Below are positions 33,613 through 50,397 of a stretch of DNA of 64,000 bases, one piece after another. Below the pieces are notes generated by a model. That model was given only the letters and a program-made list of their open reading frames with translations, did no database searches and was not told the DNA's origin. How positions within the stretch are numbered: position 1 is the stretch's first letter; each line of letters begins with the position of its first letter. Position numbers and translations under genes: made by a program. Where the stretch lies: positions 4,010,501 through 4,074,500 of the forward strand of contig NZ_CP031013.1 of NCBI RefSeq assembly GCF_003711205.1, written 5' to 3'. Source of the DNA: Polaromonas sp. SP1 (lineage in GTDB: Bacteria; Pseudomonadota; Gammaproteobacteria; Burkholderiales; Burkholderiaceae_C).

Positions 33613-34623
33613 GTGAAGATTGCGATCATTGGGGCCGGGGCCATCGGCGGTTATGTGGGCGTGAAATTGGCTTTGGCCGGTGAGGACGTGACTTTCATCG
33701 TACGCGGTGCCAACCTGGACGCCATCCGCAAGAAGGGCATGAAGCTCATCATGCACGACGGCACCGAACATATCGCGGACAACGTCAAGGCGACCAATAA
33801 CTACGCTGAAGCCGGCCCGCAGGACCTGGTGATCCTGGCCATGAAAGCGCACCAGGTCGAGGCCGTGGCCAATGAATTGCCCAAGCTGTTCGGCCCTGAT
33901 ACCGCGGTCGTCACCATGCAAAACGGCATCCCTTACTGGTACTTCCACAACCACGGCGGCCCGTTCGAGGGCAGCCAGGTCCACAGCGTTGATCCCAGCG
34001 GCGTACAGTCAAAAATGATTCCTGCCCAGCGGGTGATCGGCTGCGTCGTGTACCCGGCCTCTGAACTGGTGGCGCCGGGCGTCGTCAAACATATCGAAGG
34101 TGATCGTTTTCCCGTGGGCGAGCTCGACGGCTCCACGAGTGAACGTGTCACGCGCATTTCAGAATGTTTTTCCAAAGCGGGCTTCAAGGCCCCGGTGCTG
34201 GACAACATCCGCTCGGAAATCTGGCTCAAGTTGTGGGGCAACCTCACCTTCAACCCCATCAGCAGCCTGTCCCATTCCACGCTGGTGGACATCTGCCAGT
34301 TTCCGCTGACGCGCGACCTGGCCGCCAACATGATGCGCGAAGCGCAGGAAGTTGCGCACAAGCTGGGCATCGAGTTTCGCGTCACGCTGGACAAGCGCAT
34401 CGCCGGCGCCGAAAAAGTGGGCAAACACAAGACGTCCATGCTGCAGGACATCGAAGCCGGCCGGGCGCCGGAGATCGACGCCCTCGTGGGCTCGGTGGTG
34501 GAACTGGGCCGCCTGACGCAAACGCCCACGCCGCACATCGACACGGTGTATGCCCTCGTCAAGCTGCTCGCCAAAACCATGGACGAAGAGCGCGGGCAAG
34601 TGCGGCTTCAGCTGGCCGCCTGA
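33613..34623 (+). CDS. PanE-like reductase (ketopantoate reductase family); candidate oxalyl-CoA reductase
   Basis: A 336-residue NADP-dependent reductase starting GTG 33613 with AGGAG nine bases upstream. The Rossmann motif is IGAGAIGGYVG (6-16); MQNGIPYWYF and EIWLKLWGNLTFNP (with K206 as the likely catalytic lysine) are ketopantoate reductase family blocks. The length is somewhat above that of E. coli PanE (303). Its setting, between glyoxylate genes and an oxalate transporter plus oxc/frc, matches the gene called panE2 in Methylobacterium extorquens, reported as an oxalyl-CoA reductase (recalled, not checked). A pantothenate role is the alternative. Confidence 0.8.
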   Translation: MKIAIIGAGAIGGYVGVKLALAGEDVTFIVRGANLDAIRKKGMKLIMHDGTEHIADNVKATNNYAEAGPQDLVILAMKAHQVEAVANELPKLFGPDTAVVTMQNGIPYWYFHNHGGPFEGSQVHSVDPSGVQSKMIPAQRVIGCVVYPASELVAPGVVKHIEGDRFPVGELDGSTSERVTRISECFSKAGFKAPVLDNIRSEIWLKLWGNLTFNPISSLSHSTLVDICQFPLTRDLAANMMREAQEVAHKLGIEFRVTLDKRIAGAEKVGKHKTSMLQDIEAGRAPEIDALVGSVVELGRLTQTPTPHIDTVYALVKLLAKTMDEERGQVRLQLAA

Positions 34624-34640
34624 GCAGGCACCGCAGCCAG

Positions 34641-34700
34641 TCGCTATATTTTTTATAGCTACAAGCCAAGTCGCTGCCTTGGCTACAGCCACTTTTCTTA
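34641..34700 (+). repeat. Dispersed short repeat, copy 5 (intergenic)
   Basis: Begins TCGCTATATTTTTTATAGC and has a degraded end (CTTGGCTACAGCCACTTTTC). It lies between the convergent panE-like gene and the gene at 34723, where its hairpin could also act as a terminator. Confidence 0.55.
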
Positions 34701-34722
34701 TAAATTCCGGCTGAAGCCGGCT

Positions 34723-35619
34723 TCAGGGCCCAAAGGCCAGCGATTTCTTCATCGCTTCGACGACCCCATCGGAGGGGGTCTCGAAATCGAACTTGGCCCC
34801 AAGGTCCAGCGCTTTCAACAGCAGCGGATTGGCGTTCTTGAGGGAGTCGAACAAACCCGCCGCTTTTTTGACCGCGTCTGCCGATGCGCCAGGGTGAACG
34901 TAGAGCCCGTAGCCCCAGCTCGCGTTAGTGGTCGGCACGATCACCAGTTGCGCCATATGGATACGCTCATCGGTGCCGTGGTGGCTCTTCATGGAGGCGG
35001 CCTGTGCGCTCTGCAGCCGGGTAATCAGGCCGGCCCAGCGGTCTGCCTGCCAGTGAAACGCCGCCTTGGTCGGCAAATAGCTCTGCCCCAACCCTTGCTG
35101 CGGCAATATCTCAACCACCGTGCCGCAAATACTTTCGGCCTTCACCAGCGATGTGGTCACGCCGCTTTTCATTCCAAAGCAACTGGTCGTCTTGAGTTTG
35201 GCCAGCACTTTGGCCTGATCGGCGGCGGGAAGCGTCTTCAGCTCGACGGGTTTGCCGTCTTTGACCGTTCCGATGTCAGCCAGAATCAGTACAGCCGACT
35301 GGATCGGATCCATGTTGACCGCCACCGGCCGATAGCCCGAGGCAAGACCGACCACCGGATTGCCGTAGACCCAGCAGGGTGGTGCGGGCTTTTTGACAGC
35401 CGTCAAAACATCCTGCGTCTCCCGGATGTTGAGCACCGGCGTGACCGACAGCCCCGTGGGGCGGATGAAGTCAACGAGTTCTTTCAGGGCACTTTCGGTT
35501 TGCGATGCGCCCTCGCCCCGAATGACCTGGGGATTCAGGTAAAGCCCGCCTTCGCACTGCTGCGCCTGAGCGGTAAAACCGCAGAAAAACAAAGCCACCA
35601 GCAACAATGCGTTTTTCAT
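34723..35619 (-). CDS. Exported protein, possible PhnD-like periplasmic binding protein
   Basis: A 298-residue protein with a signal peptide (MKNALLLVALFFCGFTAQAQ). The mature part shows ELVDFIRPTGLSVTPVLNIRETQDVLTAVKKP, CWVYGNPVVGLASGYRPVAVN and KLKTTSCFGMKSGVTT, which recall PhnD-type (PBP2) solute-binding proteins, including the pattern of a domain that samples ligands such as phosphate or phosphonate. Five or more cysteines may form disulfides. No transport genes follow it; it faces away from the TctC gene across a shared 297-base intergenic region. Function not assigned. Confidence 0.55.
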   Translation of the reverse strand: MKNALLLVALFFCGFTAQAQQCEGGLYLNPQVIRGEGASQTESALKELVDFIRPTGLSVTPVLNIRETQDVLTAVKKPAPPCWVYGNPVVGLASGYRPVAVNMDPIQSAVLILADIGTVKDGKPVELKTLPAADQAKVLAKLKTTSCFGMKSGVTTSLVKAESICGTVVEILPQQGLGQSYLPTKAAFHWQADRWAGLITRLQSAQAASMKSHHGTDERIHMAQLVIVPTTNASWGYGLYVHPGASADAVKKAAGLFDSLKNANPLLLKALDLGAKFDFETPSDGVVEAMKKSLAFGP

Positions 35620-35795
35620 GGTTATTACCTTTCAAAACATTTTTTATGTTCCAGTTATCGCCATGGAACGAAGCGCCAGCCCTGTTGAAATTCATGGTAT
35701 CGGCGATGTGACACTTTCCTCCTAGGGACATACGCTATCCGTGGGCGCCGGAGCGGCTCCGGAGAAACCCTAGAGGGGCTCGAAAATCCCGCAAA

Positions 35796-35811
35796 CTTGA
35801 CCCCTGTCAAG
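35796..35811 (+). promoter_or_regulatory. CRP/FNR-type operator upstream of tctC
   Basis: CTTGAC-CCCT-GTCAAG, a perfect 6+6 dyad with the FNR-family layout TTGAC-N4-GTCAA. It matches the site upstream of oxc (39911-39926) in half-site and spacing. It lies 106 bases before the tctC start. No good -10 box is seen at the class II distance, which would fit an activator-dependent promoter or a different activation geometry. Confidence 0.65.
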
Positions 35812-35916
35812 AGTTTTTGGCCCACTTGGTAAGACCATACGTCTGCAATATCCTCGGCGAGGGAATCAATAAAGAAATTCCAGCCAACAACAGAGTTACC
35901 CAACACAGGAGACAAC

Positions 35917-36942
35917 GTGATGAAAACCAGATTTGCAAGCATCCGGAATAAATTGGCTGCAGCGGGGACAACCGTCATCGCAGCAGCTGCGCTGACGGCC
36001 TTCCCGGCCCACGCGGCCTGGGAACCCACCAAGCCGGTGGAGTTCGTGGTACCTGCGGGTACCGGCGGCGGCGCCGACCAGATGGCGCGACTGATGCAGG
36101 GCATCGTCATCAAGCACAAGCTGATGAAAGAGCCGCTGATCGTCGTCAACAAATCCGGTGGCGCAGGCGCCGAGGGTTTCCTGGAGGTCAAGGGCGCTAC
36201 GGGCAACCCGCACAAGATCATCATCACGCTGTCCAACCTCTTCACCACGCCGCTGGCAACCGGTGTTCCCTTCAACTGGCGCGACATGACACCGGTGTCC
36301 ATGATGGCACTCGACCAGTTCGTGCTGTGGGTGAATGCAGAGAACCCGGCCAAGAACGCCAAAGACTACCTGGCTGCCGTGAAGGCCGCGGGCCCCAGCA
36401 AAATCAAGATGGGTGGCACCGGCTCCAAGCAGGAAGACCAGATCATCACCGTCGGCATTGAGCAAGCCACCGGCACCAAATTCATCTACGTGCCCTTCAA
36501 GGGCGGCGGTGAAGTCGCGGTCCAGCTGGTCGGCAAACACGTTGACTCTTCCGTCAACAACCCGATCGAGGCGGTTGCCCAGTGGCGCGCCAACCAGCTG
36601 CGCGCTCTGTGCGTGTTCGATGACAAACGAATGACCTACAAGACCAAGGTGACCGACACCCAGTCGTGGGCCGACATCCCAACCTGCAAGGAAGCCGGTG
36701 TGCCCACCGACTACACCATGCTGCGTGGCATTTTCATGGCGCCCGGTGTCTCCAAAGACCAGCTCCAGTTCTACGTCGATCTGCTCAAGAAAATCCGCGA
36801 CACACCTGAGTGGAAAGACTACATGGAAAAAGGCGCATTCAACCAGACCTCCATGTCCGGCGACGAGTTCGGCAAATGGCTCGGCAGCGCAGAGCAGCGC
36901 CATCGCGAGCTGATGAAGGAAGCCGGCTTCATCGCGAAGTAA
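35917..36942 (+). CDS. tctC: Tripartite tricarboxylate transporter, periplasmic binding protein (TctC/Bug)
   Basis: Bug-family binding protein, 341 residues, with a signal peptide ending AFPAHA. Start GTG 35917 or ATG 35920, both behind CAGGAGA. The mature part begins WEPTKPVEFVVPAGTGGGADQMAR, the classic Bug opening that wraps the dicarboxylate. QEDQIITVGIEQATGTKFIYVPFKGGGEVA is the second family motif. It is followed by the two membrane components, so this is a complete transporter. Position in front of oxc and frc suggests oxalate or a related small diacid as substrate. Confidence 0.93.
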   Translation: MMKTRFASIRNKLAAAGTTVIAAAALTAFPAHAAWEPTKPVEFVVPAGTGGGADQMARLMQGIVIKHKLMKEPLIVVNKSGGAGAEGFLEVKGATGNPHKIIITLSNLFTTPLATGVPFNWRDMTPVSMMALDQFVLWVNAENPAKNAKDYLAAVKAAGPSKIKMGGTGSKQEDQIITVGIEQATGTKFIYVPFKGGGEVAVQLVGKHVDSSVNNPIEAVAQWRANQLRALCVFDDKRMTYKTKVTDTQSWADIPTCKEAGVPTDYTMLRGIFMAPGVSKDQLQFYVDLLKKIRDTPEWKDYMEKGAFNQTSMSGDEFGKWLGSAEQRHRELMKEAGFIAK

Positions 36943-36950
36943 CGATCAAG

Positions 36951-36972
36951 AAAACCCCGTTCGCCGGGTTTT
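36951..36972 (+). promoter_or_regulatory. Hairpin between tctC and tctB
   Basis: AAAACCCCG-TTCG-CCGGGTTTT folds into a stable UUCG-looped stem ending in T residues. It probably causes partial termination or stabilises the tctC mRNA, giving more binding protein than membrane protein. Confidence 0.65.
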
Positions 36973-37054
36973 CCCCTGCGGGCTGGCCATGCGCCAGCCC
37001 CACAATCATCAAAGTTCGCCCTGGTACAGGGCACTCAATCCAACGGAGTTGCTC

Positions 37055-37573
37055 ATGGAGCCAAACCAAGAATCCGGCGCGGAGCGCACGGGCGTCGCCA
37101 CCTATGTCGTTGAAGCCATCGTCGCGACCTGTATCGTCATCATGGGGGCGGTGGTCCTCCAGGGCAGCTGGGCCCTCGGCTCCGGCTGGACCAGCGACGG
37201 GCCAGGCGCAGGTTACTTCCCGTTTTACATCGGCATCATCCTGTGTATTTCCGGCGCAGGCACCCTCTACCAGGCGCTGTTCGGAAAGAACAAGAACACC
37301 GAAGTGTTCGTCGACGGCGAGCAGCTCAAGCGCGTGCTGTCGGTACTGGTTCCCGCCATCGTTTACGTGGGGGCTGTCCAGTTTTTGGGCCTCTACGTTG
37401 CATCGGCCGTCTACATCGCGCTGTTCATGATCATCCTGGGAAAGTTTTCCCCGATCAAGAGCGTGATCACTGCCCTCCTTGTGAACGCACTGTTTTTCTT
37501 CATGTTCGAGGTCTGGTTCAAGGTCCCCTTGTTCAAGGGCCAATTCGAGCCGCTGAGCTTCCTCGGCTATTGA
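37055..37573 (+). CDS. tctB: Tripartite tricarboxylate transporter small membrane subunit TctB
   Basis: A 172-residue protein from ATG 37055, behind CGGAG, with four hydrophobic segments (about 20-40, 57-76, 92-112, 118-150). The motif SDGPGAGYFPFYIGIIL near residue 47 is a TctB family signature. The order tctC-tctB-tctA is standard. An upstream in-frame start at 36989 would add a non-conserved leader. Confidence 0.9.
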   Translation: MEPNQESGAERTGVATYVVEAIVATCIVIMGAVVLQGSWALGSGWTSDGPGAGYFPFYIGIILCISGAGTLYQALFGKNKNTEVFVDGEQLKRVLSVLVPAIVYVGAVQFLGLYVASAVYIALFMIILGKFSPIKSVITALLVNALFFFMFEVWFKVPLFKGQFEPLSFLGY

Positions 37574-37622
37574 GCCCTCTCTAACCGTACCGAGCCCCAC
37601 AGAACTTTTACCGGATATCGAA

Positions 37623-39152
37623 ATGGAAGAACTAAATTCGCTTTTTCACGGATTCAGCGTCATTCTGACGCCGATGAACATCGTCCTGATGTTCGTGGGC
37701 ATCATTCTGGGTGTGCTGATCGGCGTGCTGCCCGGCCTTGGCGGCGCCAACGGCGTGGCCATCCTGCTGCCACTGACCTTCACGATGTCGCCCACCTCGG
37801 CCATCATCATGCTGTCCTGCATTTACTGGGGCGCACTGTTCGGTGGGGCCATCACCTCGGTGCTGTTCAACATACCGGGGGAGCCCTGGTCGGTTGCCAC
37901 CACCTTTGACGGCTACCCGATGGCGCAGCAAGGCAAGGCCGGCGCTGCGCTGACGGCTGCTTTCACCTCGTCTTTCATCGGCGCCTTTGTTGCCGTGGTG
38001 ATGATCACCTTCCTGGCGCCCCTGGTCGCCAAGTTCGCGCTCAAGTTCGGCCCTCCCGAATTTTTCGCGGTCTACCTGCTGACGTTCTGCAGCTTCGTGG
38101 GCATGGGCAAGGGCTCTCCGTTCAAGATCCTCGCGTCGATGACGATCGGCTTTGCGCTGGCCTCCGTCGGCATGGACACGGTGACCGGCCAGCTGCGCCT
38201 GACCTTCGGCATCCCCGACCTGATGCGCGGCTTCGACTTCCTGATCGCGGTGATCGGCCTGTTCGGTATCGGCGAGATCCTGCTGTCCATGGAAGAAGGC
38301 CTGGCTTTCTCGGGCAAGAGCGCCAAGATCGACCCCAAGGTCGTGCTGGAAACCTGGAAGAAGCTGCCGAAATACTGGATGACCTCGCTTCGCAGCTCGC
38401 TGATCGGTATCTGGATGGGCATCACCCCCGGCGGCGCCACACCAGCCTCGTTCATGAGCTACGGCCTGGCCAAGAAGATGTCCAAGAACGGTTCGAAATT
38501 CGGCACGGGCGAAATCGAAGGCGTCATCGCCCCCGAAACCGCAGCGCACGCTGCCGGCACCAGCGCCCTGCTGCCCATGCTGGCACTGGGCATCCCGGGC
38601 TCCCCCACCGCAGCCGTGCTGCTCGGAGGCCTGCTGATCTGGGGCCTGCAGCCCGGACCTTTGCTCTTCGTTGAGCAAAAAGACTTCGTCTGGGGCCTGA
38701 TTGCCAGCATGTACCTGGGTAACCTGGTCGGCCTGATCGTTGTGCTGACCACGGTGCCGCTGTTTGCGTCCATCCTGCGCATTCCGTTCTCCATCATTGC
38801 GCCGGTGATTGTGGTGATCTGCGCGATCGGCGCCTACACCGTGCACAACGCCATGCTGGACATCTGGTTCATGATGCTGTTCGGCGTCATCGGCTACCTC
38901 TTCAAGAAGCTGGACTATCCGCTCGCGCCGCTGGTGCTCGCATTGGTCCTCGGAGACAAGGCCGAAGACTCGTTCCGCCAGGCCATGCTGGTGTCGCAAG
39001 GTGAGATGTCCATCATGTGGTCCAACCCGCTGGTGGGCGGCATCACGACACTGGCCCTGGTCCTGCTGTTCTGGCCCCTGATCTCCCGCGTGATGGCCAA
39101 GATTCGCCCGCCCAAGAAGAACGAATTTGCCGCGGAACAGCCCGTCGACTGA
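37623..39152 (+). CDS. tctA: Tripartite tricarboxylate transporter large membrane subunit TctA
   Basis: A 509-residue permease with about 11-12 transmembrane segments. The two conserved Gly/Pro-rich blocks are present: GVLPGLGGANGVAILLPLTF near the N-terminus and TGEIEGVIAPETAAHAAGTSALLP followed by LALGIPGSPTAAVLLGG in the middle. It ends the transporter operon, directly before a strong terminator. Confidence 0.94.
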   Translation: MEELNSLFHGFSVILTPMNIVLMFVGIILGVLIGVLPGLGGANGVAILLPLTFTMSPTSAIIMLSCIYWGALFGGAITSVLFNIPGEPWSVATTFDGYPMAQQGKAGAALTAAFTSSFIGAFVAVVMITFLAPLVAKFALKFGPPEFFAVYLLTFCSFVGMGKGSPFKILASMTIGFALASVGMDTVTGQLRLTFGIPDLMRGFDFLIAVIGLFGIGEILLSMEEGLAFSGKSAKIDPKVVLETWKKLPKYWMTSLRSSLIGIWMGITPGGATPASFMSYGLAKKMSKNGSKFGTGEIEGVIAPETAAHAAGTSALLPMLALGIPGSPTAAVLLGGLLIWGLQPGPLLFVEQKDFVWGLIASMYLGNLVGLIVVLTTVPLFASILRIPFSIIAPVIVVICAIGAYTVHNAMLDIWFMMLFGVIGYLFKKLDYPLAPLVLALVLGDKAEDSFRQAMLVSQGEMSIMWSNPLVGGITTLALVLLFWPLISRVMAKIRPPKKNEFAAEQPVD

Positions 39153-39169
39153 TCGTCGGGGCAAGCAAC

Positions 39170-39203
39170 AAAAAGCCGGGTAACTTACCCGGCTTTTTTA
39201 TTG
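39170..39203 (+). terminator. Bidirectional-type terminator after tctA
   Basis: AAAAAGCCGGGTAA-CTTACCCGGCTTTTTT is a strong stem with A-run on one side and T-run on the other, placed between convergent tctA and the crp/fnr gene, so it can serve both. Confidence 0.92.
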
Positions 39204-39236
39204 CTGCTTCACCTGCTGCGGCTTTGCTTTTTAGCG

Positions 39237-39845
39237 TCAGATCTTGCCGCGCTGCTTGAGCCGGCTCAGGGTTTCCGCGGAGAGGTTCAGGTAGGACGCC
39301 AATTCCTTTTTGGGAATGCGGTCGAACAGTTCCGGGTGCTTGCGCTGAAAGCGTTTGACACGGCCGGGTGCGTCCAGCAAATGCAGCGTGATGGTATGGG
39401 CCATGATCTCGCTCATCAGGCGCATCACGTAGTACTCGAACGATTGCTTGATTTCATGATGGCGTTCCAGAAACGCTACCCATTCCGGCAACGGCAGCTT
39501 TGCCACCCGCACTTTGGTCACGCACACCGTGCTGTAGGGCGTCGGCGTGCCCAGCCGCCAGGCGGCGTAGCTGGTTTCCATGTCGCGCTCGTCGGCAAAA
39601 CGAAGAATCATCTCCTTGGCCTGCTCATTGGTCACCACGCGCTTGAGGATGCCTTCAAGGATGAAATATTGCTCCATCTCATGCACCCCCTGCTCCAGCA
39701 GGGCATCGCCTTTCTGCCCGTCAACAATGACCAGGTGCGACTCGAGTTCCGCGCTTTGTTCCGCCGTCATTCCCTTGAGCACGATGTTCTGCGCCAGCTG
39801 GACACGAATGACGTTTCTCTCGGAATGATTTGGTATGGACGACAT
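39237..39845 (-). CDS. Crp/Fnr-family transcriptional regulator
   Basis: A 202-residue regulator. An N-terminal cyclic-nucleotide-binding-like beta domain (about 15-115; DALLEQGVHEMEQYFILEGILKRVV) leads to a dimerisation helix and a C-terminal HTH reading IPKKELASYLNLSAETLSRLKQRGKI. The recognition helix has E191-x-x-S194-R195, the E-x-x-S-R pattern of FNR, which reads TTGA(T/C) half-sites. No N-terminal Cys cluster exists, so it is not an Fe-S oxygen sensor, and the protein ends right after the recognition helix. It is divergent from oxc; the TTGAC-N4-GTCAA site lies 66 bases upstream of its own start. Confidence 0.9.
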   Translation of the reverse strand: MSSIPNHSERNVIRVQLAQNIVLKGMTAEQSAELESHLVIVDGQKGDALLEQGVHEMEQYFILEGILKRVVTNEQAKEMILRFADERDMETSYAAWRLGTPTPYSTVCVTKVRVAKLPLPEWVAFLERHHEIKQSFEYYVMRLMSEIMAHTITLHLLDAPGRVKRFQRKHPELFDRIPKKELASYLNLSAETLSRLKQRGKI

Positions 39846-39910
39846 GAAGGCAATAAGGATTGGGCAGGACCCGGATCCATCGGTTTTTCAGAGGGGCGAA
39901 TACACCGAAA

Positions 39911-39953
39911 ATTGACCGTGGTCAATGTTGGAATCCGAATCGATTCCTATGAT
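39911..39953 (+). promoter_or_regulatory. Class II CRP/FNR-type promoter of oxc
   Basis: The dyad ATTGAC-CGTG-GTCAAT (39911-39926) is followed by TATGAT at 39948-39953. If transcription starts at 39960, the -10 box occupies -12 to -7 and the dyad is centred at -41.5, exactly the class II activator geometry. No separate -35 box is present. The 5' untranslated region would be about 150 bases. The same half-site occurs upstream of tctC. Confidence 0.75.
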
Positions 39954-40109
39954 ACCTCGACGGTGCAAATGACCCCTTGGGCACCCAAAAGCGAGGCGAC
40001 GTAACACACCGCTGAAGGCCCTTCACTCAAGTCAACGAGTTTCAGGGCCCGATACGGCCAGTTGCTTTGCTCAACCTTTATCGAAGTCAAAACGAAGAGA
40101 CATTTCATC

Positions 40110-41828
40110 ATGACCAACGCCACCACATCGACAGAGCAGATCGACGGTTTCCACCTCGTCATCGATGCCCTCAAGCTCAACGGCATCGACACGATCTTCG
40201 CCCTGCCCGGCATCCCCATTACCGACCTCACCCGCAAAGCGCAGGCTGAAGGCATTCGCATGATCTCGTTTCGCCACGAGCAGCATGCCGGCAATGCCGC
40301 CGCAGCCGCCGGCTTCCTGACGCAAAAACCCGGGATTTGCCTGACCGTCTCCGCTCCCGGCTTCCTGAACGGCCTCACGGCCCTGGCCAATGCCACCACG
40401 AACTGCTTCCCGATGATCCTGATCAGCGGCTCCAGCGAGCGCGAGATCGTCGACCTGCAGCAGGGCGACTACGAAGAAATGGACCAGCTGGCGATTGCCA
40501 AGCCATTGTGCAAAGCAGCATTTCGCGTTCTGCACGCTGAAGACATCGGCGTGGGCATCGCCCGCGCCATCCGTTCGGCACTGTCCGGCCGTCCCGGCGG
40601 CGTTTACCTCGACCTGCCGGCCAAGCTGTTCAGCCAGTCGATGGACGCCGCGGCTGGCAAGAAGTCGCTCATCAAGGTGGTCGACCCCGCACCGCGCCAG
40701 ATCCCTGCCCCCGATGCCGTCAAGCGCGCACTCGACCTGCTCAAGGGCGCCAAACGCCCCCTGATCGTGCTCGGCAAAGGCGCTGCCTACGCCCAGTGCG
40801 ACGCCGATATCCGTGCCCTGATCGAAAAAACCGGCATCCCTTACCTGCCGATGTCCATGGCAAAGGGCTTGCTGCCTGACACGCACCCACAGTCGGCTTC
40901 GGCCACCCGCTCCCACGTATTGGCAGAAGCCGATGTGGTGGTGCTGGTCGGTGCTCGCCTGAACTGGCTGCTCTCGCATGGCAAAGGCAAAACCTGGGGC
41001 GGCGCGAATGCCGACACCCGCCAGTTCATCCAGATCGACATCTCGCCGACCGAAATGGACAGCAACGTGCCGATCGCCGCACCGCTGGTCGGCGACATCG
41101 GCTCGTGCGTCTCGGCATTGCTGGAAGGCCTGGGCGCCAAGTGGGCCAAGCCGCCTGCCGACTGGACCCAGGGCATCACCGAGCGCAAGGACAAGAACCT
41201 GGCCAAGATGGCCGCAACGCTGGCGCTGAACCCGCCGACGATGAACTTCCACAGCGCGCTGAACGTCATCCGCAATGCGGTCAAGGCCCGCCCCGACGCC
41301 ATCGTTGTCAACGAAGGCGCCAACACCCTCGACTTCGCGCGCAGCATCGTCGACATGTACGAGCCGCGCAAACGCCTGGACGTCGGCACCTGGGGCATCA
41401 TGGGCATCGGCATGGGCTTTGCCGTCGCCGCCGCCGTGACCACGGGTAAACCCGTAATCGCTATCGAAGGCGATAGCGCTTTCGGCTTCAGCGGCATGGA
41501 AGTAGAAACCATCTGCCGCTATAACCTTCCAATTTGTGTCATCGTCTTCAACAACAACGGCATTTACAAAGGCACCGACGTGAATCCACGTGGCGGCGAT
41601 GTAGCGCCTACTGTTTTTGTCAAGAATGCACGCTACGAGATGATGATGCAGGCTTTCGGCGGCGTGGGCGTTCTGGCCAACACACCGGACGAGCTGGCCA
41701 AGGCGCTGGACGAGGCCGTCAAATCCGGCAAGCCAACCCTGATCAACGCCATCATTGACGAAACTGCAGGCACCGAAAGCGGCCGGATCACAAGTCTGAA
41801 TCCGCAAAGCGCTGCAGCGAAGAAGTAA
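40110..41828 (+). CDS. oxc: Oxalyl-CoA decarboxylase
   Basis: ThDP-dependent enzyme splitting oxalyl-CoA into formyl-CoA and CO2. The 572-residue protein starts at ATG 40110 ([21 protein letters not shown]); a longer start would read through the promoter leader. Catalytic Glu is E57 in [15 protein letters not shown], as in Oxalobacter Oxc. [14 protein letters not shown]-like and [18 protein letters not shown] are family-specific, and the ThDP motif is [17 protein letters not shown] followed by FNNNGIYKG. It lies 26 bases upstream of frc, with which it forms the core oxalate pathway. Confidence 0.96.
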
Positions 41829-41854
41829 TCCAAAGCATCCTAAGGAGAAATCAA

Positions 41855-43126
41855 ATGAGCAACAAACCACTCGCCGGCATCAAGATCATCGACTTCACCC
41901 ACGTTCAAGCCGGTCCCGCCTGCACCCAGATGCTGGCCTGGTTCGGCGCCGACGTGATCAAGGTCGAGCGTCCCGGCTCCGGCGACGTCACCCGAAGCCA
42001 GCTGCGCGACATCGAGGGCGCCGACGCGCTGTACTTCACCATGCTCAACAGCAACAAGCGCGGCCTGACGCTGGACACCAAAAAGCCCGAGGGCAAGGAA
42101 GTGCTGGAGAGGCTCATCAAGGAATCCGACGTGATGGTCGAGAATTTTGGCCCCGGCGCGCTGGACCGCATGGGATTCACCTGGGAGCGCATCCAGGAAC
42201 TCAACCCCAAAATGATTCTGGCTTCCGTCAAGGGTTTCTCGGACGGCCACCACTACGAAGACCTCAAGGTTTATGAAAACGTGGCCCAGTGCGCAGGCGG
42301 CGCGGCGTCCACCACCGGTTACTGGAAAGGCGAGAACTCAGGCCCCACCATTTCGGCTGCCGCTTTGGGCGACAGCAATACCGGCATGCACCTGGCCATC
42401 GGTATTTTGACGGCCTATATCGGCCGCCAACAGACCGGCAAGGGCCAAAAAGTGGCCGTGTCCATGCAGGACAGCGTGCTCAACCTGTGCCGCGTCAAAA
42501 TGCGTGACCAGTTGCGCCTGGACAAGCTGGGCTACCTGGAAGAGTACCCACAGTACCCGCATGAAATGGAAGCCTTCAAGGACGGCGTGGTGCCGCGCGG
42601 CGCCAATGCCGGCGGCGGCGGCCAACCCGGCTGGATTTTGAAGTGCAAGGGCTGGGAGACAGACCCCAACGCGTACATCTATTTCACGGTTCAGGGCCAC
42701 GCCTGGGAGCCGATCTGCGACGCGCTGGGCAAACCCGAATGGAAAACCGACCCCGCCTACACCACGGCCAAGGCACGCCAGCCGCACATCATGGACATCT
42801 TCGCCACGATTGAAGCTTTCATCGCCGACAAGACCAAGTTCGAAGCCGTGGACGTCTTCCGCAAGTTTGACATTCCCTGCGCACCCGTGCTGTCAATGAA
42901 GGAATTGCTGCACGACGAGTCCTTGCGCGCCAGCGGCTCCATCGTTGAAGTGCCGCACAAGGTGCGCGGCAGCTACTTCACCGTGGGCAGCCCGATCAAG
43001 TTCTCCGACACCAAACCCGAAGTGACGGCATCGCCCCTGCTGGGCGAGCACACGGATGAAGTTCTGGCTGAACTGGGCTACAGCAAGGACCAGATCGCGG
43101 CCATCCACGCGGCAAAAGCGGTTTAA
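41855..43126 (+). CDS. frc: Formyl-CoA:oxalate CoA-transferase, copy 1
   Basis: Class III CoA-transferase moving CoA from formyl-CoA to oxalate. The 423-residue protein starts [22 protein letters not shown], nearly the textbook Frc opening. The catalytic Asp is D173 in [14 protein letters not shown] and the Gly loop is [10 protein letters not shown]. The start is preceded by AAGGAG. Immediately downstream of oxc and ended by its own terminator, so oxc-frc form a two-gene operon. Confidence 0.94.
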
Positions 43127-43169
43127 CGCAAGCGCGGTTTTTTTGACTTAGAGGTCTGGTGACCCGCAA

Positions 43170-43202
43170 AAACGGCGTTCAGTTTGAGCGCCGTTTTTTT
43201 TA
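43170..43202 (+). terminator. Terminator after frc copy 1
   Basis: AACGGCG-TTCAGTTTGAG-CGCCGTT followed by a run of T residues. It separates oxc-frc from the PAS gene. Confidence 0.88.
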
Positions 43203-43242
43203 AAGCCCAGCCAGCTTAATTGCCAGCAGCAGGAGTGGACCT

Positions 43243-43689
43243 ATGCAAACAACAACCGACCTGAAACAGCTCGTGGAAGCCGTGGGCGACGCCATTGTGG
43301 CCTCCGATGCCGGCGGTGCGATCGTGCTGTGGAACCCGGCCGCTACGCGGATGTTCGGTTTCACGGAAGAAGAAGCCCTGGGCAAGTCGCTGGACATCAT
43401 CATTCCGCAGCGCCAGCAGCAGCGTCACTGGGACGGCTACCACAAGACCATGGAAACCGGCAAAACGCGGTATGGCAACGACGTGCTGCGGGTGCCGGCC
43501 GTGCACAAGGACGGGCATGGCCTGTCCATCGCCTTCACCGTGGCCCTGTTACATACCCCGGACAACAAGGTTTCGGCCATTGTTGCGGTGATCCGCGACG
43601 AAACCGCCCGCTTTGCCGAAGAGCGAAATCTGAAGAAACGCCTGACGGAGCTTGAAATGCAGCTTGCCCCTCAGGGCAATACACCCTAA
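43243..43689 (+). CDS. Stand-alone PAS domain protein
   Basis: A 148-residue soluble protein consisting of a single PAS domain (about 10-125): VGDAIVASDAGGAIVLWNPAATRMFGFTEEEALGKSL, then a hydrophilic loop (PQRQQQRHWDGYHKTMETG) and the C-terminal sheet (SIAFTVALLHTPDNKVSAIVAVIRDETARFAEERNL) leading into a short coiled coil. No kinase, cyclase, HTH or other output domain is attached. The W-D-G-Y-H-K-T pattern before the FG region has a His that could bind haem in PAS proteins of the FixL type, but this is only a possibility. It sits between two formyl-CoA transferase genes. Confidence 0.85.
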   Translation: MQTTTDLKQLVEAVGDAIVASDAGGAIVLWNPAATRMFGFTEEEALGKSLDIIIPQRQQQRHWDGYHKTMETGKTRYGNDVLRVPAVHKDGHGLSIAFTVALLHTPDNKVSAIVAVIRDETARFAEERNLKKRLTELEMQLAPQGNTP

Positions 43690-43816
43690 CCCAAACCGTA
43701 CAGGCTTACCACTGGAGCAGTGATTACCATAGGGGTTGACAGGGCACAAGAGGCCCGGCCATGGCCAAAACCATGTGTCAAACAACCACTTTTTCAACTT
43801 CCCAGCAGGAACTTTC

Positions 43817-45064
43817 ATGAGCAAAGCGTTAGACGGCGTTCGCATCCTTGATTTCACCCATGTCCAGTCGGGGCCGACGTGCACCCAGTTGCTGGCGTGG
43901 TTCGGCGCCGACGTCATCAAGGTCGAGCGTGCGGGCGAAGGCGACGCCACGCGCGGGCAGCTGCGCGACATCCCCGGTGTGGACAGCCTGTATTTCACGA
44001 TGCTCAACCACAACAAGCGCTCGATCACCCTGGATACCAAAAAGCCCAAGGGCAAGGAAGTCCTGGACACGCTGATCAAGGAATGCGACGTACTGGTGGA
44101 AAACTTTGCACCCGGCGCACTCGACCGCATGGGCATCACCTGGGAACACATCCAGAAGCTCAATCCCCGCATGATCGTCGCCTCGGTCAAGGGTTTCGGC
44201 CCTGGCCGCTACGAAGACTGCAAGGTGTACGAAAACGTCGCCCAGTGTGCCGGCGGCTCCGCCTCCACCTCGGGCTTTGACGACGGCCCGCCCATGGTGA
44301 CGGGCGCACAGATCGGCGACAGCGGCACCGGCCTGCACCTGGCCCTGGGCATCGTCGCCGCCCTCTACCAGCGCAACACCACGGGTCGCGGCCAGAAGGT
44401 GCTGGCCCCCATGCAGGACGCCGTGCTGAACCTGTGCCGCGTCAAGCTGCGCGACCAGCAGCGCCTGGAGCGCACCGGCACCATGCACGAATACCCGCAG
44501 TACCCCGACGGCAAGTTCGGTGAAGCGGTCCCCCGCGCAGGCAATGCTTCCGGCGGCGGCCAGCCGGGCTCCATCCTGAAATGCAAGGGCTGGGAGACCG
44601 ACCCCAACGCGTACATCTACTTCATCACCCAGGGCGCAGTGTGGCCTGCCGTCTGCAAGGTGATCGGCGAAGAAGGCTGGATTGACGACGAGGCTTTTGC
44701 CACGCCGGCGGCCCGGCTGCTGCACCTGAAGCCCATCTTCGCGCGCATCGAGAAATGGACCATGACCAAGACCAAGTTCGAGGCCATGGAAATCCTGAAC
44801 CAGTACGACATTCCCTGCGGGCCCATCCTGTCGATGAAGGAGATCGCGGAGGAGCCAGGCCTGCGCGAGACAGGCACCATTGTGGAAGTCGACCACCCCA
44901 CCCGCGGCAAGTACCTCACCGTGGGCAACCCGATCAAGATGTCAGACAGTGCCACTGAAGTGACCCGCTCACCCCTGCTGGGCGAGCACACCGACGAGGT
45001 ATTGACGCAATTGGGCTACGGCGCCGATTACATCGCCGAACTGCGCGCCGAGCGCGTCATCTAG
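43817..45064 (+). CDS. frc: Formyl-CoA:oxalate CoA-transferase, copy 2
   Basis: Second class III CoA-transferase, 415 residues from ATG 43817 ([29 protein letters not shown]). It shares the family blocks with copy 1, including catalytic D168 in [14 protein letters not shown] and an SGGGQPG glycine loop in place of AGGGGQPG. It lacks about eight residues relative to copy 1 around the central segment ([13 protein letters not shown]), like the E. coli YfdW form. It precedes formate dehydrogenase by 52 bases, so the products formyl-CoA/formate are dealt with in one unit. An acetyl-CoA:oxalate transferase activity cannot be excluded. Confidence 0.9.
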
Positions 45065-45116
45065 GCCGGGCAGCCCACGCCACCAACGCCAGCCATACAG
45101 CGAGCCAACACGCTTC

Positions 45117-46811
45117 ATGAACCATCCCATCATTCCCATCGCCGTCATCGACGCCTCCAAGCAGCGAAAACGCCAGGCCCCCAAGGGCCGCCGCGTAGAC
45201 CCGCAGGCGCTGGCGGAGGTGCAGCGTCTGCTGGGCACCGAGTCGCGCCGTGCGGACCTGCTGATCGAGCACCTGCACAAGATCCAGGATGCGTTCGGCC
45301 ACCTGTCGGCAGCGCACCTGGCCGCGCTGGCCCAGGAGATGAAGCTGGCGCAGACCGAGGTCTATGAAGTGGCAACCTTCTATCACCACTTTGATGTGGT
45401 CAAGGAAGGTGAATCAGCGCCCCCCGAACTCACCGTGCGCGTCTGCGACGGCCTGTCATGCGAGATGGCGGGCGCCAAGGATCTGCTGGCCAGGCTCCCT
45501 GCCCTGCTGGGCCGCGAAGTCCGTGTCATTGCCGCGCCCTGCATAGGCCGCTGCGAACAGGCTCCCGCGGCCGTGGTGGGCCAAAACCCGGTGCCGAACG
45601 CCAGCTGCGAAGCCATCGTGTCGACCGTCGCTGCGCAGGCTGTGCAACACGTGCCCGAAGGGTTTGTCGACCTTCCCGCCTACCAGGCAGAAGGCGGCTA
45701 CAGCCTGCTCAAGCAATGCGTCTCGGGCGGACGTGATGTCGAAGCCGTCCTCAAGACCATGGAAGACTCCGGCCTTCGCGGCCTCGGTGGGGCAGGATTT
45801 CCGTCCGGCCGCAAGTGGCGCATTGTCCGGGCCGAAAAAGGCCCACGCCTGATGGCCGTCAACATCGACGAGGGCGAGCCCGGCACCTTCAAGGACCGCG
45901 TTTACCTGGAGCGCGACCCGCACCGTTTCCTCGAAGGCATGCTGATCGCCGCCTGGGCCGTCGGCATCGAGAAGATCTACGTTTACCTGCGGGATGAATA
46001 CCACGGCTGCCGCAACATGCTGGAAGCCGAACTGGCCCGGCTGCGGCTGGACCCATTGATGGCCGGCATGCCGGAGATCGAGCTGCGCCGCGGCGCGGGC
46101 GCCTACATCTGCGGCGAAGAGTCGGCCATGATCGAATCCATCGAAGGCAAGCGCGGCATGCCCCGCCTGCGCCCACCGTACGTGGCGCAAGTTGGCCTGT
46201 TCGGCCGGCCGACGCTGGAGCACAACTTCGAAACGCTGTACTGGGTCCGCGACATCCTGGAAAAAGGCGGCGAGTGGTTTGCCTCGCACGGCCGCAACGG
46301 CCGCAAGGGCTTGCGTTCGTTCTCGGTGTCGGGGCGGGTCAAGGAGCCCGGCGTCAAGCTGGCGCCGGCCGGCATCACCATCCAGGAGCTGATCGACGAG
46401 TACTGCGGCGGCATGCTGGACGGTCACACGTTCTATGCCTACCTGCCCGGCGGTGCTTCGGGCGGCATCCTGCCGGCCACGATGAACACGATTCCGCTGG
46501 ACTTCGACACGCTGCAACCCTACGGCTGCTTTATCGGCTCGGCGGCCGTCATCATCCTTTCCGACAAGGACACGGCCACCGGCGCTGCACGCAACATGAT
46601 GAGTTTCTTTCACCATGAGTCTTGCGGCCAGTGCACGCCCTGCCGCGTCGGCACGGCGAAAGCGGCGCACCTGATGGAGCAGCCCAAGTGGGATCTGGCC
46701 TTGCTGGCAGACCTGTCGCTGGTGATGCGTGACGCATCGATCTGCGGCCTGGGCCAGGCAGCACCGAACCCGATGGACTGCGTCGTCAAGTACTTCCCCC
46801 ACGAACTATGA
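45117..46811 (+). CDS. NAD-linked formate dehydrogenase beta subunit (NuoE-NuoF fusion)
   Basis: A 564-residue diaphorase subunit that passes electrons from the formate-oxidising alpha subunit to NAD+. Residues about 30-165 are a NuoE/FdsG-type thioredoxin-like [2Fe-2S] domain (VCDGLSCEMAG and APCIGRCEQAP supply the four Cys). Residues about 200-560 are NuoF/FdsB: FMN site GLRGLGGAGFPSGRKW, NADH loop GAGAYICGEESAMIESIEG, and the [4Fe-4S] motif ESCGQCTPCR. The fused layout resembles the beta subunit of the tungsten enzyme FDH1 of Methylobacterium rather than the separate FdsG and FdsB of Cupriavidus. Confidence 0.93.
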   Translation: MNHPIIPIAVIDASKQRKRQAPKGRRVDPQALAEVQRLLGTESRRADLLIEHLHKIQDAFGHLSAAHLAALAQEMKLAQTEVYEVATFYHHFDVVKEGESAPPELTVRVCDGLSCEMAGAKDLLARLPALLGREVRVIAAPCIGRCEQAPAAVVGQNPVPNASCEAIVSTVAAQAVQHVPEGFVDLPAYQAEGGYSLLKQCVSGGRDVEAVLKTMEDSGLRGLGGAGFPSGRKWRIVRAEKGPRLMAVNIDEGEPGTFKDRVYLERDPHRFLEGMLIAAWAVGIEKIYVYLRDEYHGCRNMLEAELARLRLDPLMAGMPEIELRRGAGAYICGEESAMIESIEGKRGMPRLRPPYVAQVGLFGRPTLEHNFETLYWVRDILEKGGEWFASHGRNGRKGLRSFSVSGRVKEPGVKLAPAGITIQELIDEYCGGMLDGHTFYAYLPGGASGGILPATMNTIPLDFDTLQPYGCFIGSAAVIILSDKDTATGAARNMMSFFHHESCGQCTPCRVGTAKAAHLMEQPKWDLALLADLSLVMRDASICGLGQAAPNPMDCVVKYFPHEL

Positions 46812-46906
46812 GCCCCCACGCTTGTCGCTTCGCGTACTACGCTGCCCCCCGAGGGGGCTGGCCTTGCTTGGGGCGGCCCGGCGCTGCGGCCGGCCTGCCT
46901 GCGCAC
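46811..46906. repeat. Intergenic GC-rich repeat between the formate dehydrogenase genes
   Basis: Starts directly after the beta-subunit stop with GAGCCCCCACGCTTGTCGCT, continues with TCGCGTACTACGCTGCCCCC and CGAGGGGGCTGGCC, then GGGGCGGCCCGGCGC. I recognise it as a common intergenic repeat of Comamonadaceae genomes (from memory). It contains hairpin-forming arms (GCCCCC / GGGGGC). Confidence 0.7.
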
Positions 46907-46920
46907 TTTAAGGATTTCTC

Positions 46921-49758
46921 ATGAATGCAATTACCCGCCAGGAACTCGCAGAGCTCGATGCTCCGCTCGTAAGTTTCAGCCTCAACGGCCGTGAAGTCCA
47001 GGGCCGTGCCACCGAATCGCTGCTGCAGGTCGCCAAACGCGAAGGCGTGGAGATTCCGCACCTGTGCTTCAAGGAAGGCATGGAAGCCGTCGGCAACTGC
47101 CGCTCCTGCATGGTCGAGATCAACGGTGAGCGCGTACTCGCCCCCTCCTGCTGCCGCGCGCCGACTGCCGGCATGAAGGTCGTCACCGACAGCGAACGCG
47201 CCGTCGCATCCCAAAAAATGGTGCTGGAGCTGTTGCTGTCGGACATGCCCGAGAAGGAATACACCCGCAACAACGAGGTGGACCAGTGGGCCGCCAAAAT
47301 CGGCGTCGGCAAGCCCCGTTTCGAGGCGCGCCAGCAGGTGCGCCAGGATGTGTCGCACCCCGCCATTGCCGTGAACCTGGACGCCTGCATCCAGTGCACG
47401 CGCTGCCTGCGCGCCTGCCGCGACGAACAGGTCAACGACGTGATCGGCCTGGCCTTCCGCGGTGACCAGGCCAAGATTGTGTTCGACATGGACGACGCGA
47501 TGGGCGCGTCCACCTGCGTGGCCTGCGGCGAATGTGTGCAGGCCTGCCCCACCGGCGCACTGATGCCCGCCCGTGAGGCTGCGCTGACCGTGCCGGACAA
47601 GCAGGTCAAGTCGGTCTGCCCCTATTGCGGCGTCGGCTGCCAGCTGACCTACAACGTCAAGGACGACAAGATTCTGTTTGTGGAGGGCCGCGACGGCCCG
47701 GCCAACCACGAGCGCCTGTGCGTCAAGGGCCGCTACGGTTTTGATTACGCACACCATCCGCAGCGCCTGACCAAGCCGCTGATCCGCCGCGAAGGCGTGC
47801 CGAAAACCGGCGACTTCACGATGGACCCGGACCGCGTGATGGACGTGTTCCGCGAAGCCAGCTGGGAAGAAGCGCTGGAATTCGCCGGCGGCAAGCTTGC
47901 CGCCATCCGCGACCAGTACGGCAAAAAATCGCTGGCCGGTTTCGGCTCGGCCAAAGGCAGCAACGAAGAGGCCTACCTGTTCCAGAAGCTGGTGCGCACC
48001 GGCTTCGGCAGCAACAACGTCGACCACTGCACCCGCCTGTGCCACGCCTCTTCCGTGGTCGCCCTGCTGGAAGGCATCGGCTCCGGTGCGGTGTCCAACC
48101 CGGTGATGGATGTGACCAAGGCGGATGTCGTTGTCATCATCGGTGCCAACCCGACGGTCAACCACCCTGTCGCTGCCACCTGGATCAAGAACGCCGTGAA
48201 AAACGGCACCAAACTGATCGTGATGGATCCGCGCCGCTCTGACCTGACCCGCGTGGCGCACCGCCACCTGCAGTTCAAGCCCGACACCGACGTGCCCATG
48301 CTCAACGCGATGATGAATGTCATCGTGACCGAAGGCCTGGTAGACCAGGCCTTCATCGACAGCCGCACCATCGGCTACGAAGAGCTGCGCAAAAACGTGG
48401 AGGGCTACACGCCCGAGTTGATGGCCCCAATCTGCGGTATCGACGCCGAGACGCTGCGCTACGTGGCACGCCTGTTCGCCACCTCCAAAGGCTCGATGAT
48501 CCTCTGGGGCATGGGCGTTTCGCAGCACGTGCACGGCACCGACAACGCACGCTGCCTGATTGCCCTTTCATTGATGACCGGCCAGATCGGCCGTCCCGGC
48601 ACCGGCCTGCACCCCCTGCGCGGCCAGAACAATGTGCAGGGCGCGTCCGACGCGGGCCTGATCCCCATGATGCTGCCGGATTACCAGCACGTCTCCAAAC
48701 CCGAGGTCCGCGCCAGCTTCGAGAAGGCCTGGGGCGTGGCGCCCGGCTCCCTGGATGACCAGGTCGGCCTGACAGTGGTCGAGGTGATGCACGCCATCAA
48801 GAAGGGCGGCATCAAGGGGATGTACGTGCAGGGCGAGAACCCGGCCATGTCCGACCCCGACGCCAACCACGCGCGTGAAGCCCTGGCGGCCCTGGACCAC
48901 CTGGTGGTGCAGGACATCTTCCTGACTGAAACCGCCTACCTCGCGGACGTGATCCTGCCGGCCAGCGCCTTCCCTGAAAAGGACGGCAGCTTTACCAACA
49001 CCGACCGGCTGGTGCAGATGGGCCGCAAGGCCATCAACCCGCCCGGCGATGCGCGCCAGGACCTCTGGATCATCACGCAGATCGCCAACCGGATGGGTTG
49101 CGGCTGGGACTACAAGCACGTCTCCGAGGTGTTCGACGAGATGCGCCACACCATGCCCAGCATTGGCGGCATCACCTGGGAGCGGCTGGACCGCGAGCAT
49201 TCGGTCACCTACCCCTGCATGAAGGAAGGCGATCCCGGCCAGTCGGTGGTGTTCGTGGAGGACTTCCCCCGCGAAGGCGGCCGCGCTAAATTCGTTCCGG
49301 CAGACATCATCCCGGCCAACGAGCGCCCCGATACCGAGTACCCCATGGTGCTGATCACCGGCCGCCAGCTGGAACACTGGCACACCGGCAGCATGACGCG
49401 GCGCGCCACGGTGCTCGATGCGATCGAGCCTGATCCGGTCGCCCTGGTGCACCCGCTGGACCTCGCCGCCATGGGCGGAAAACCGGGCGATGTGGTGACG
49501 ATCGAGTCGCGCCGCGGCAAGGTGGGCCTGTACGCCCGCGCCGATGAGAGCTCGCCACGCGGCGCTGTGTTTGTACCTTTCTGTTACTACGAGGCCGCCA
49601 TCAACAAACTGACCAACGCGGCGCTGGACCCTTTCGCGAAGATCCCGGAGTTCAAGTACTGCGCGATTCGTGTGTCGCTGGGCGGCGTGCCGCCCGAGCA
49701 GGACAGCTACGGCGGCGGGCAGGCGCTGAAGAATTCGATCGCGCTTGCCGGCTTCTGA
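46921..49758 (+). CDS. NAD-linked formate dehydrogenase catalytic alpha subunit
   Basis: A 945-residue molybdo/tungsto-bis-PGD enzyme oxidising formate to CO2. In order: NuoG-like [2Fe-2S] domain (CFKEGMEAVGNCRSC ... SCC), two [4Fe-4S] clusters (CIQCTRCLRAC; CVACGECVQACPTGAL), the CPYCGVGC cluster, and the molybdopterin domains. The catalytic residue is Cys in HCTRLCHASSV (Sec in E. coli FdhF). The C-terminal dinucleotide-binding domain carries TGRQLEHWHTGSMTRR. It starts after TAAGGA. With the beta subunit it forms a soluble NAD+-reducing enzyme; accessory FdhD and FdsC-like genes are not in the window. Confidence 0.95.
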   Translation: MNAITRQELAELDAPLVSFSLNGREVQGRATESLLQVAKREGVEIPHLCFKEGMEAVGNCRSCMVEINGERVLAPSCCRAPTAGMKVVTDSERAVASQKMVLELLLSDMPEKEYTRNNEVDQWAAKIGVGKPRFEARQQVRQDVSHPAIAVNLDACIQCTRCLRACRDEQVNDVIGLAFRGDQAKIVFDMDDAMGASTCVACGECVQACPTGALMPAREAALTVPDKQVKSVCPYCGVGCQLTYNVKDDKILFVEGRDGPANHERLCVKGRYGFDYAHHPQRLTKPLIRREGVPKTGDFTMDPDRVMDVFREASWEEALEFAGGKLAAIRDQYGKKSLAGFGSAKGSNEEAYLFQKLVRTGFGSNNVDHCTRLCHASSVVALLEGIGSGAVSNPVMDVTKADVVVIIGANPTVNHPVAATWIKNAVKNGTKLIVMDPRRSDLTRVAHRHLQFKPDTDVPMLNAMMNVIVTEGLVDQAFIDSRTIGYEELRKNVEGYTPELMAPICGIDAETLRYVARLFATSKGSMILWGMGVSQHVHGTDNARCLIALSLMTGQIGRPGTGLHPLRGQNNVQGASDAGLIPMMLPDYQHVSKPEVRASFEKAWGVAPGSLDDQVGLTVVEVMHAIKKGGIKGMYVQGENPAMSDPDANHAREALAALDHLVVQDIFLTETAYLADVILPASAFPEKDGSFTNTDRLVQMGRKAINPPGDARQDLWIITQIANRMGCGWDYKHVSEVFDEMRHTMPSIGGITWERLDREHSVTYPCMKEGDPGQSVVFVEDFPREGGRAKFVPADIIPANERPDTEYPMVLITGRQLEHWHTGSMTRRATVLDAIEPDPVALVHPLDLAAMGGKPGDVVTIESRRGKVGLYARADESSPRGAVFVPFCYYEAAINKLTNAALDPFAKIPEFKYCAIRVSLGGVPPEQDSYGGGQALKNSIALAGF

Positions 49759-49810
49759 GCGGACCGGCGGCGCGTCAGTGACGCGCCCCGGCCGCACTTC
49801 AAAAATTTAC

Positions 49811-49870
49811 GCCAAATCGCCTTCCAGCCCAGTCGCCACCTTGGGTTATAGCTATCATTTAGATAGCAAC
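49811..49870 (-). repeat. Dispersed short repeat, copy 6 (intergenic)
   Basis: Minus strand reads TTGCTATCTAAATGATAGCT and ends CTGGGCTGGAAGGCGATTTGG. It lies between the convergent formate dehydrogenase and RraA-like genes. Confidence 0.75.
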
Positions 49871-49884
49871 CAGGCGCTCGGCCC

Positions 49885-50397
49885 TTATTCCCGCTGCGGC
49901 GCCGGCATCACGACGATGCCGTCCTCATCGGCGTAAAGCCAGTCGCCCGGCCGCACCCAGACGCCTTGAATCTGCACGGGGACGCCCGTCAGGCCCGCCT
50001 GGCGCCTTTCCGTGGGCAGTGGCATGCTCGCCAGCGCGCGGATGCCGGTCTGGCATTGCGCCAGCTCAGCCACGTCGCGCACGCAGCCGTCAATCACCAC
50101 CCCCGCCCAGCCGTTTTTGGCGGCCGCCGCGCCCAGGTTGCCGCCCAGCAGCGCACGGCGCAGCGAGGCCCCGCCATCCACTACCAGCACGCGTGCCTCG
50201 CCCGGCGACTCCACCGCCGCCTTGACCGGCGTGTTGTCCTCAAAACACTTCACCGTGACCACGGGGCCGCTGAACTTCTGCAGGCCGCCATAGCCCCTGA
50301 AAACAGGCGGCAGCACCCTGAAATTTCCCGAGGTATCGCCTTTGTGGAGGTCGCAGAGATCGCAGGTGGCGAATGGCGTGACATTGTTCTGGCTCAT
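49885..50397 (-). CDS. RraA-like / HMG aldolase family protein
   Basis: A 170-residue protein from ATG 50397, which overlaps the asnC stop as ATGA. It has the RraA fold markers: TVKCFEDNTPVKAAV, VLVVDGGASLRRALLGGNLGAAAAKNG, and the divalent-metal/substrate motif GVVIDGCVRD. This family includes 4-hydroxy-4-methyl-2-oxoglutarate aldolases with oxaloacetate decarboxylase activity and the RNase E inhibitor RraA. The D-x-x-x-R-D motif of the aldolase type is present (DGCVRD), so an oxo-acid aldolase or decarboxylase is as likely as RraA. Cysteines in CDLCDLHKGDT are unusual. Confidence 0.82.
   Translation of the reverse strand: MSQNNVTPFATCDLCDLHKGDTSGNFRVLPPVFRGYGGLQKFSGPVVTVKCFEDNTPVKAAVESPGEARVLVVDGGASLRRALLGGNLGAAAAKNGWAGVVIDGCVRDVAELAQCQTGIRALASMPLPTERRQAGLTGVPVQIQGVWVRPGDWLYADEDGIVVMPAPQRE

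Follow-up and report, generated by a model that had tools for sequence, protein, structure and literature searches.

A Crp/Fnr-family regulator predicted to control oxalate catabolism in Burkholderiales through a conserved promoter dyad

Introduction

Soil and plants are rich in oxalate, a compound that bears on carbon cycling and on kidney-stone biology. In the stretch of Polaromonas sp. SP1 DNA analysed here (64,000 nucleotides, referred to as the window), genes for a tripartite tricarboxylate transporter, oxalyl-CoA decarboxylase, formyl-CoA transferases and formate dehydrogenase subunits lie together with the gene of a Crp/Fnr-family protein, here called REG (Table 1). An initial annotation had proposed that REG links oxalate uptake and breakdown through two copies of the dyad TTGAC-N4-GTCAA. 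The question raised by this locus is whether REG is indeed a dedicated regulator of oxalate catabolism, or whether the dyads belong to another protein or to another mode of control.

Results

Table 1. Features of the oxalate locus (window coordinates) and of the alternative TPP enzyme loci in relatives
Feature	Position	Strand	Remarks
298-aa protein, divergent from tctC	34723..35619	-	no family match; syntenic in close relatives
Third perfect extended dyad, TTTGACAGCCGTCAAA	35392..35407 (core 35393-35406)	+	inside CDS 34723-35619(-)
Extended dyad upstream of tctC, CTTGACCCCTGTCAAG, proposed REG site	35796..35811 (perfect core 35797-35810)	+	at most 1 mismatch in 53/60 tctC upstream regions
GACCAT, weak -10-like element of tctC	35833..35838	+	same 22-bp gap as at oxc; its A2 and T6 show partial conservation
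tctC, tripartite tricarboxylate transporter binding protein	35917..36942	+	PF03401
tctB	37055..37573	+	PF07331
tctA	37623..39152	+	PF01970
REG, 202-aa Crp/Fnr-family regulator	39237..39845	-	PF00027, E 1.2e-07; AlphaFold2 pLDDT 88.8
Extended dyad upstream of oxc, ATTGACCGTGGTCAAT, proposed REG site	39911..39926 (perfect core 39912-39925)	+	conserved in relatives
TATGAT, -10 of oxc	39948..39953	+	predicted start near 39960
oxc, oxalyl-CoA decarboxylase	40110..41828	+	TIGR03254, 993 bits (cut-off 739)
frc1, formyl-CoA transferase	41855..43126	+	TIGR03253, 707 bits (cut-off 504)
PAS-only protein between frc1 and frc2	43243..43689	+	PF00989; conserved in many Polaromonas and Ramlibacter-type loci
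frc2, formyl-CoA transferase paralogue	43817..45064	+	TIGR03253, 717 bits
NuoE/NuoF-type fused formate dehydrogenase subunit	45117..46811	+	PF01257 + PF01512
Formate dehydrogenase alpha subunit	46921..49758	+	TIGR01591, 775 bits (cut-off 666)
Alternative TPP enzyme replacing oxc beside REG and frc, several families	L155:6196-7821, L213:8196-9821, L214, L215, L216, L079		NCBIfam best PRK05858 / 2-hydroxyacyl-CoA lyase, below cut-offs

Both dyads named in the initial annotation, one before tctC and the other between REG and oxc, are perfect extended copies. A third perfect copy, which it had missed, was located inside the coding sequence divergent from tctC; since no relative beyond the two closest shares this copy, it was rejected as a third functional site and is probably incidental. 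When one mismatch was allowed, the window held 5 matches against 1.2 expected, a number reached in none of 100 shuffles. No RNA family was found in the region 34000-50000. Near the cluster, at window 33613-34623, sits a 2-dehydropantoate 2-reductase-like gene; ApbA2, a relative of this kind in Cupriavidus, is a CoA-acylating glyoxylate dehydrogenase (PMC7486775).

The arrangement of the oxc promoter bears directly on how a regulator might act there. The dyad is centred at 39918.5, which is 29.5 bp before the first base of TATGAT and hence at -41.5; both this -10 element and the centring, as originally described, held up, and the spacing is conserved at oxc in relatives. Indeed, when 90 non-redundant oxc promoters were compared, the gap between the dyad and a perfect TATNAT downstream was 22 bp in 36 instances and 23 bp in 23 (dyad centres at -41.5 and -42.5, respectively), and no further offset up to 33 yielded one. 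Some oxc dyads have no good -10 at the usual gap. The columns of the dyad hardly vary across 75 non-redundant windows, whereas most neighbouring columns have drifted; the conserved form is GAAAATTGACCGNGGTCAATGG with TATNAT some 20 bases further on. The oxc promoters have no recognisable -35, since similarity to TTGACA at spacers of 16-18 stood at shuffle level (mean 3.57 vs 3.64 mismatches). With a predicted start, a -10-placed site near -41.5 and no good -35, the promoter has the make-up of a class II promoter and should therefore need an activator of that class. The predicted oxc leader (window 39960-40109, about 150 nt) is long for a catabolic gene and gave no Rfam match.

The same arrangement might instead serve repression, REG blocking the polymerase when oxalate is lacking and being released from the dyad by a metabolite. 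A dyad beside the -10 could block the polymerase too, and the opposite-strand half-site TTGACC might serve REG as its own -35, which would give autorepression. However, repression tolerates varied positions whereas the fixed spacing of 22-23 bp is what class II activation requires, and repression would leave the need for an activator at a promoter of this kind unanswered. We consider this alternative unlikely. Autoregulation of REG through the 264-bp intergenic region that it shares with oxc might conceivably occur; the -10 of the REG promoter is weakly conserved.

REG itself adds a new member to the Crp/Fnr family, and the regulon predicted for it was previously undescribed. Its N-terminal cNMP_binding domain scores above the PF00027 cut-off and its beta-roll is borne out by AlphaFold2 (AF2) and Foldseek, the model having a Crp/Fnr fold that matches GlxR, CRP and FNR. 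Helices span residues 130-156, 159-169, 171-176, 179-185 and 190-198, with a long dimerisation helix (C-helix) followed by a C-terminal helix-turn-helix (HTH). The recognition helix, NLSAETLSRLKQR, carries an E-x-x-S-R motif whose E191, S194 and R195 are invariant in the orthologue alignment, and the chain stops four residues beyond it. This is probably why the HTH_Crp Pfam model gave no match to REG. The C-terminal wing that follows the HTH in most, but not all, Crp/Fnr members is absent from both the sequence and the AF2 model of REG; because other short members (e.g. 3DN7) are also wingless, its absence was not taken as excluding REG from the superfamily.

An FNR-like recognition helix without Fe-S cysteines had been noted at the outset, and the alignment bears this out: the single cysteine, C108, is not conserved, and neither conserved cysteines nor 4Fe-4S ligands were found among 61 orthologues. 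The residues through which CRP contacts cAMP (E72, R82 and S83) are replaced in REG by S92, T102 and P103 within a gapless stretch of the phmmer alignment, which makes cAMP unlikely as the effector. Invariant across the 61 orthologues are R82, the ETSYAAW segment (90-96), P103, Y104 and S105, and these residues may line a new effector pocket.

Perfect dyads are not restricted to the oxalate genes. The whole 4.5-Mb genome (G000, one contig) contains 13, compared to 2 for the reversed control, and two of the others lie by hemN and usp, which flank the true fnr gene (3507936-3508610). TTGAC-N4-GTCAA alone is therefore not oxalate-specific in this genome; it is a general FNR-type sign, and any link to oxalate has to come from comparison. 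A further pair of perfect dyads, 42 bp apart between thioesterase-like and GH94-like genes (G000:C1:2548497-2548552; L004, L005), is a possible target of FNR or REG. It is conceivable that FNR, the oxygen sensor, binds all of these dyads, which would place the oxalate genes in the anaerobic regulon and leave REG with another role. FNR, which is encoded in this genome beside dyad-bearing genes, has the E-x-x-S-R helix in common with REG, and Anr of Pseudomonas is reported to use TTGac-N4-gtCAA, the same dyad as that at the oxalate genes (PMC4974557).

We therefore turned to the distribution of REG, oxc and the dyad. REG orthologues, 60-100% identical, are confined to Burkholderiales in the sampled genomes, and none was found on plasmids. 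At family level (301 genomes), REG (67-100% identity) and Oxc above cut-off each occur in 49 genomes and both in 47; at order level (349 genomes), REG occurs in 64, Oxc in 63 and both in 56. With kinship ignored, Fisher p values for this co-occurrence are 5e-50 and 6e-48, respectively. At class level, REG was found in its own genome alone among 274 sampled. The exceptions at family level are a REG gene beside a contig end in a genome 58% complete (G293), an oxc split in two pieces (G105), an oxc at a contig end (G053) and an oxc in a genome lacking REG (G050).

Among relatives, 109 of 139 distinct oxc upstream regions contain the perfect TTGAC dyad, whereas any other half-site permutation appears in at most one, by which we reject a chance origin of the oxc dyads. 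Presence of the dyad at oxc depends on REG: with up to one mismatch it was found in 67 of 70 REG-bearing genomes but in one of nine lacking REG (p 5e-8), the lone case (G053) being probably an assembly gap. Two genomes with both REG and oxc have a site with 2 mismatches (G047 and G351), and in G198 the true oxc sits away from REG and has no dyad. In L208 (G586), tctA and tctC look broken, REG is missing beside oxc and oxc has no dyad, an apparent decay of the regulon.

These comparisons speak against FNR as the binding protein. The dyad persists in all ten genomes that encode REG and Oxc but not FNR, as a perfect copy in nine and with a single mismatch in the tenth, so FNR is not necessary and was rejected as a necessary binder, while the REG-less genomes mostly have no dyad at oxc although G050 among them has an FNR-like protein. 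The flanks differ as well, with TTGACC favoured at oxc and tctC but TTGACA at hemN and usp. An FNR regulon is thus a very improbable account of the oxalate dyads, and FNR and REG may cross-talk in genomes that have both proteins.

The dyad also travels with oxalate function. It remains perfect before oxc where oxc and REG lie on different contigs (G308 and G356), precedes oxc at a gap of 22 where the two genes are in tandem (G375 and G520), and is likewise found before oxc in G634. In Herminiimonas-type loci and one Rhodoferax locus it stands before frc, with the -10 at 22-23, and in two loci before fdsB. At oxlT, encoding the OxlT oxalate/formate antiporter (TIGR04259), it was found in 16 of 30 cases in REG-bearing genomes compared to 0 of 12 in those without REG (p 0.0009). 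Some dyad-bearing oxlT genes are unlinked to REG, including those of G156 and G287, which lie on a different contig from REG and have a perfect dyad; the oxlT of G000 itself, 160 kb away, has none. The oxalate regulon proposed initially was therefore upheld in that dyad, regulator and oxalate genes co-vary over Burkholderiales, but elsewhere it extends beyond two sites to frc, oxlT, fdsB and an alternative TPP enzyme. The refuting condition set by the initial annotation, a common dyad bearing no relation to oxalate genes, was put to the test and did not refute the proposal; in this genome the dyad also marks the FNR-type targets hemN and usp.

A paralogue 43-45% identical to REG occurs in some genomes (L159:13813-14415 in G067, G169:C25 and G247:C135). 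This second paralogue adjoins an OxlT gene in G067 and G169, with dyads upstream in G067, and could represent a split regulon serving the antiporter.

Of the eight order-level genomes that have REG and lack Oxc, seven show the alternative TPP enzyme beside REG, counting G391 by expectation from its family mates and not from a reading of its own locus. The enzyme is 23-28% identical to Oxc, its copies share 50-94% identity with that of G198, and its loci usually carry the dyad with a -10 at 20-23. It is a candidate alternative oxalyl-CoA decarboxylase. An oxalate/formate antiporter of Collimonas pratensis is reported to rise in concert with frc and a predicted oxalyl-CoA decarboxylase (PMC12542777). 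The Collimonas layout seen here runs from the TPP enzyme through REG and about three genes to OxlT, and we infer that it corresponds to C. pratensis locus tags NKI69446 to NKI69451.

That the conserved dyad is the site of some other protein, with REG a mere passenger of the cluster, is the least probable alternative: REG and oxc are mostly adjacent, so linkage alone could hold them together, and REG-dyad binding is a prediction, but oxc has no dyad in genomes lacking REG, the unlinked oxc of G308 and G356 retains it, its half-site is that expected for an E-x-x-S-R helix, and a scan of cluster genes turned up no further recognisable DNA-binding protein.

Discussion

Taken together, we consider it highly probable that REG is a Crp/Fnr activator dedicated to a single pathway, oxalate catabolism, and that it acts via TTGAC-N4-GTCAA at -41.5/-42.5. 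From these genomic patterns we infer that REG physically binds the dyad, activates rather than represses, and answers to an effector of the pathway. Oxalate or a signal derived from it, most likely oxalate, oxalyl-CoA or formyl-CoA, would act on REG in the cell; the REG dimer would bind the dyad and touch RNA polymerase in class II fashion, making up for the absent -35; and oxc-frc and the formate dehydrogenase genes that follow would be switched on together with the transporter tctCBA. More tentatively, REG may be the first Crp/Fnr sensor of oxalate itself (or of oxalyl-CoA/formyl-CoA) through a remodelled cNMP pocket, and its regulon may point to a second, so far unrecognised kind of oxalyl-CoA decarboxylase, namely the TPP enzyme found next to REG in place of Oxc, in Collimonas among others; we rate this joint proposal well below that of an activator.

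With a site and a regulator defined, the control of oxalotrophy becomes directly open to experiment. The dyad serves as a marker for oxalate genes and already leads to the alternative TPP enzyme and oxlT, and the REG/dyad pair could become an oxalate biosensor. The initial annotation knew of no oxalate-specific Crp/Fnr regulon; likewise, our search, which covered the open-access literature, found no paper joining a Crp/Fnr regulator to oxalate catabolism and no bacterial regulator of oxc/frc other than EvgA of E. coli.

How, then, does REG relate to known systems? EvgA controls yfdXWUVE (oxc/frc) in E. coli (PMC3720670); it thus acts on the same pathway genes but is an acid-responsive two-component response regulator, unrelated to REG in protein and site. 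The best PDB sequence match to REG is 3DN7 (E 1e-8), a short Crp-type protein that likewise ends soon past the HTH, with low similarity over about 170 aligned residues. CRP and GlxR resemble REG in the beta-roll sensor domain and long C-helix (TM-score about 0.7-0.8), but REG lacks the cAMP residues and C-terminal wing of CRP. With the FNR/Anr/Dnr group REG shares the fold, the E-x-x-S-R helix, a TTGA-type dyad (TTGA-N6-TCAA) and the class II geometry at -41.5; unlike that group, it has no conserved Cys or Fe-S ligands, has oxalate catabolism as its predicted regulon and is present in FNR-less genomes. CprK and NtcA, each a Crp/Fnr regulator of a particular pathway, take small organic molecules as effectors. 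In working mode (activation in response to a metabolite, through an FNR-like dyad) they resemble REG as we propose it, and they differ from it in effector and targets.
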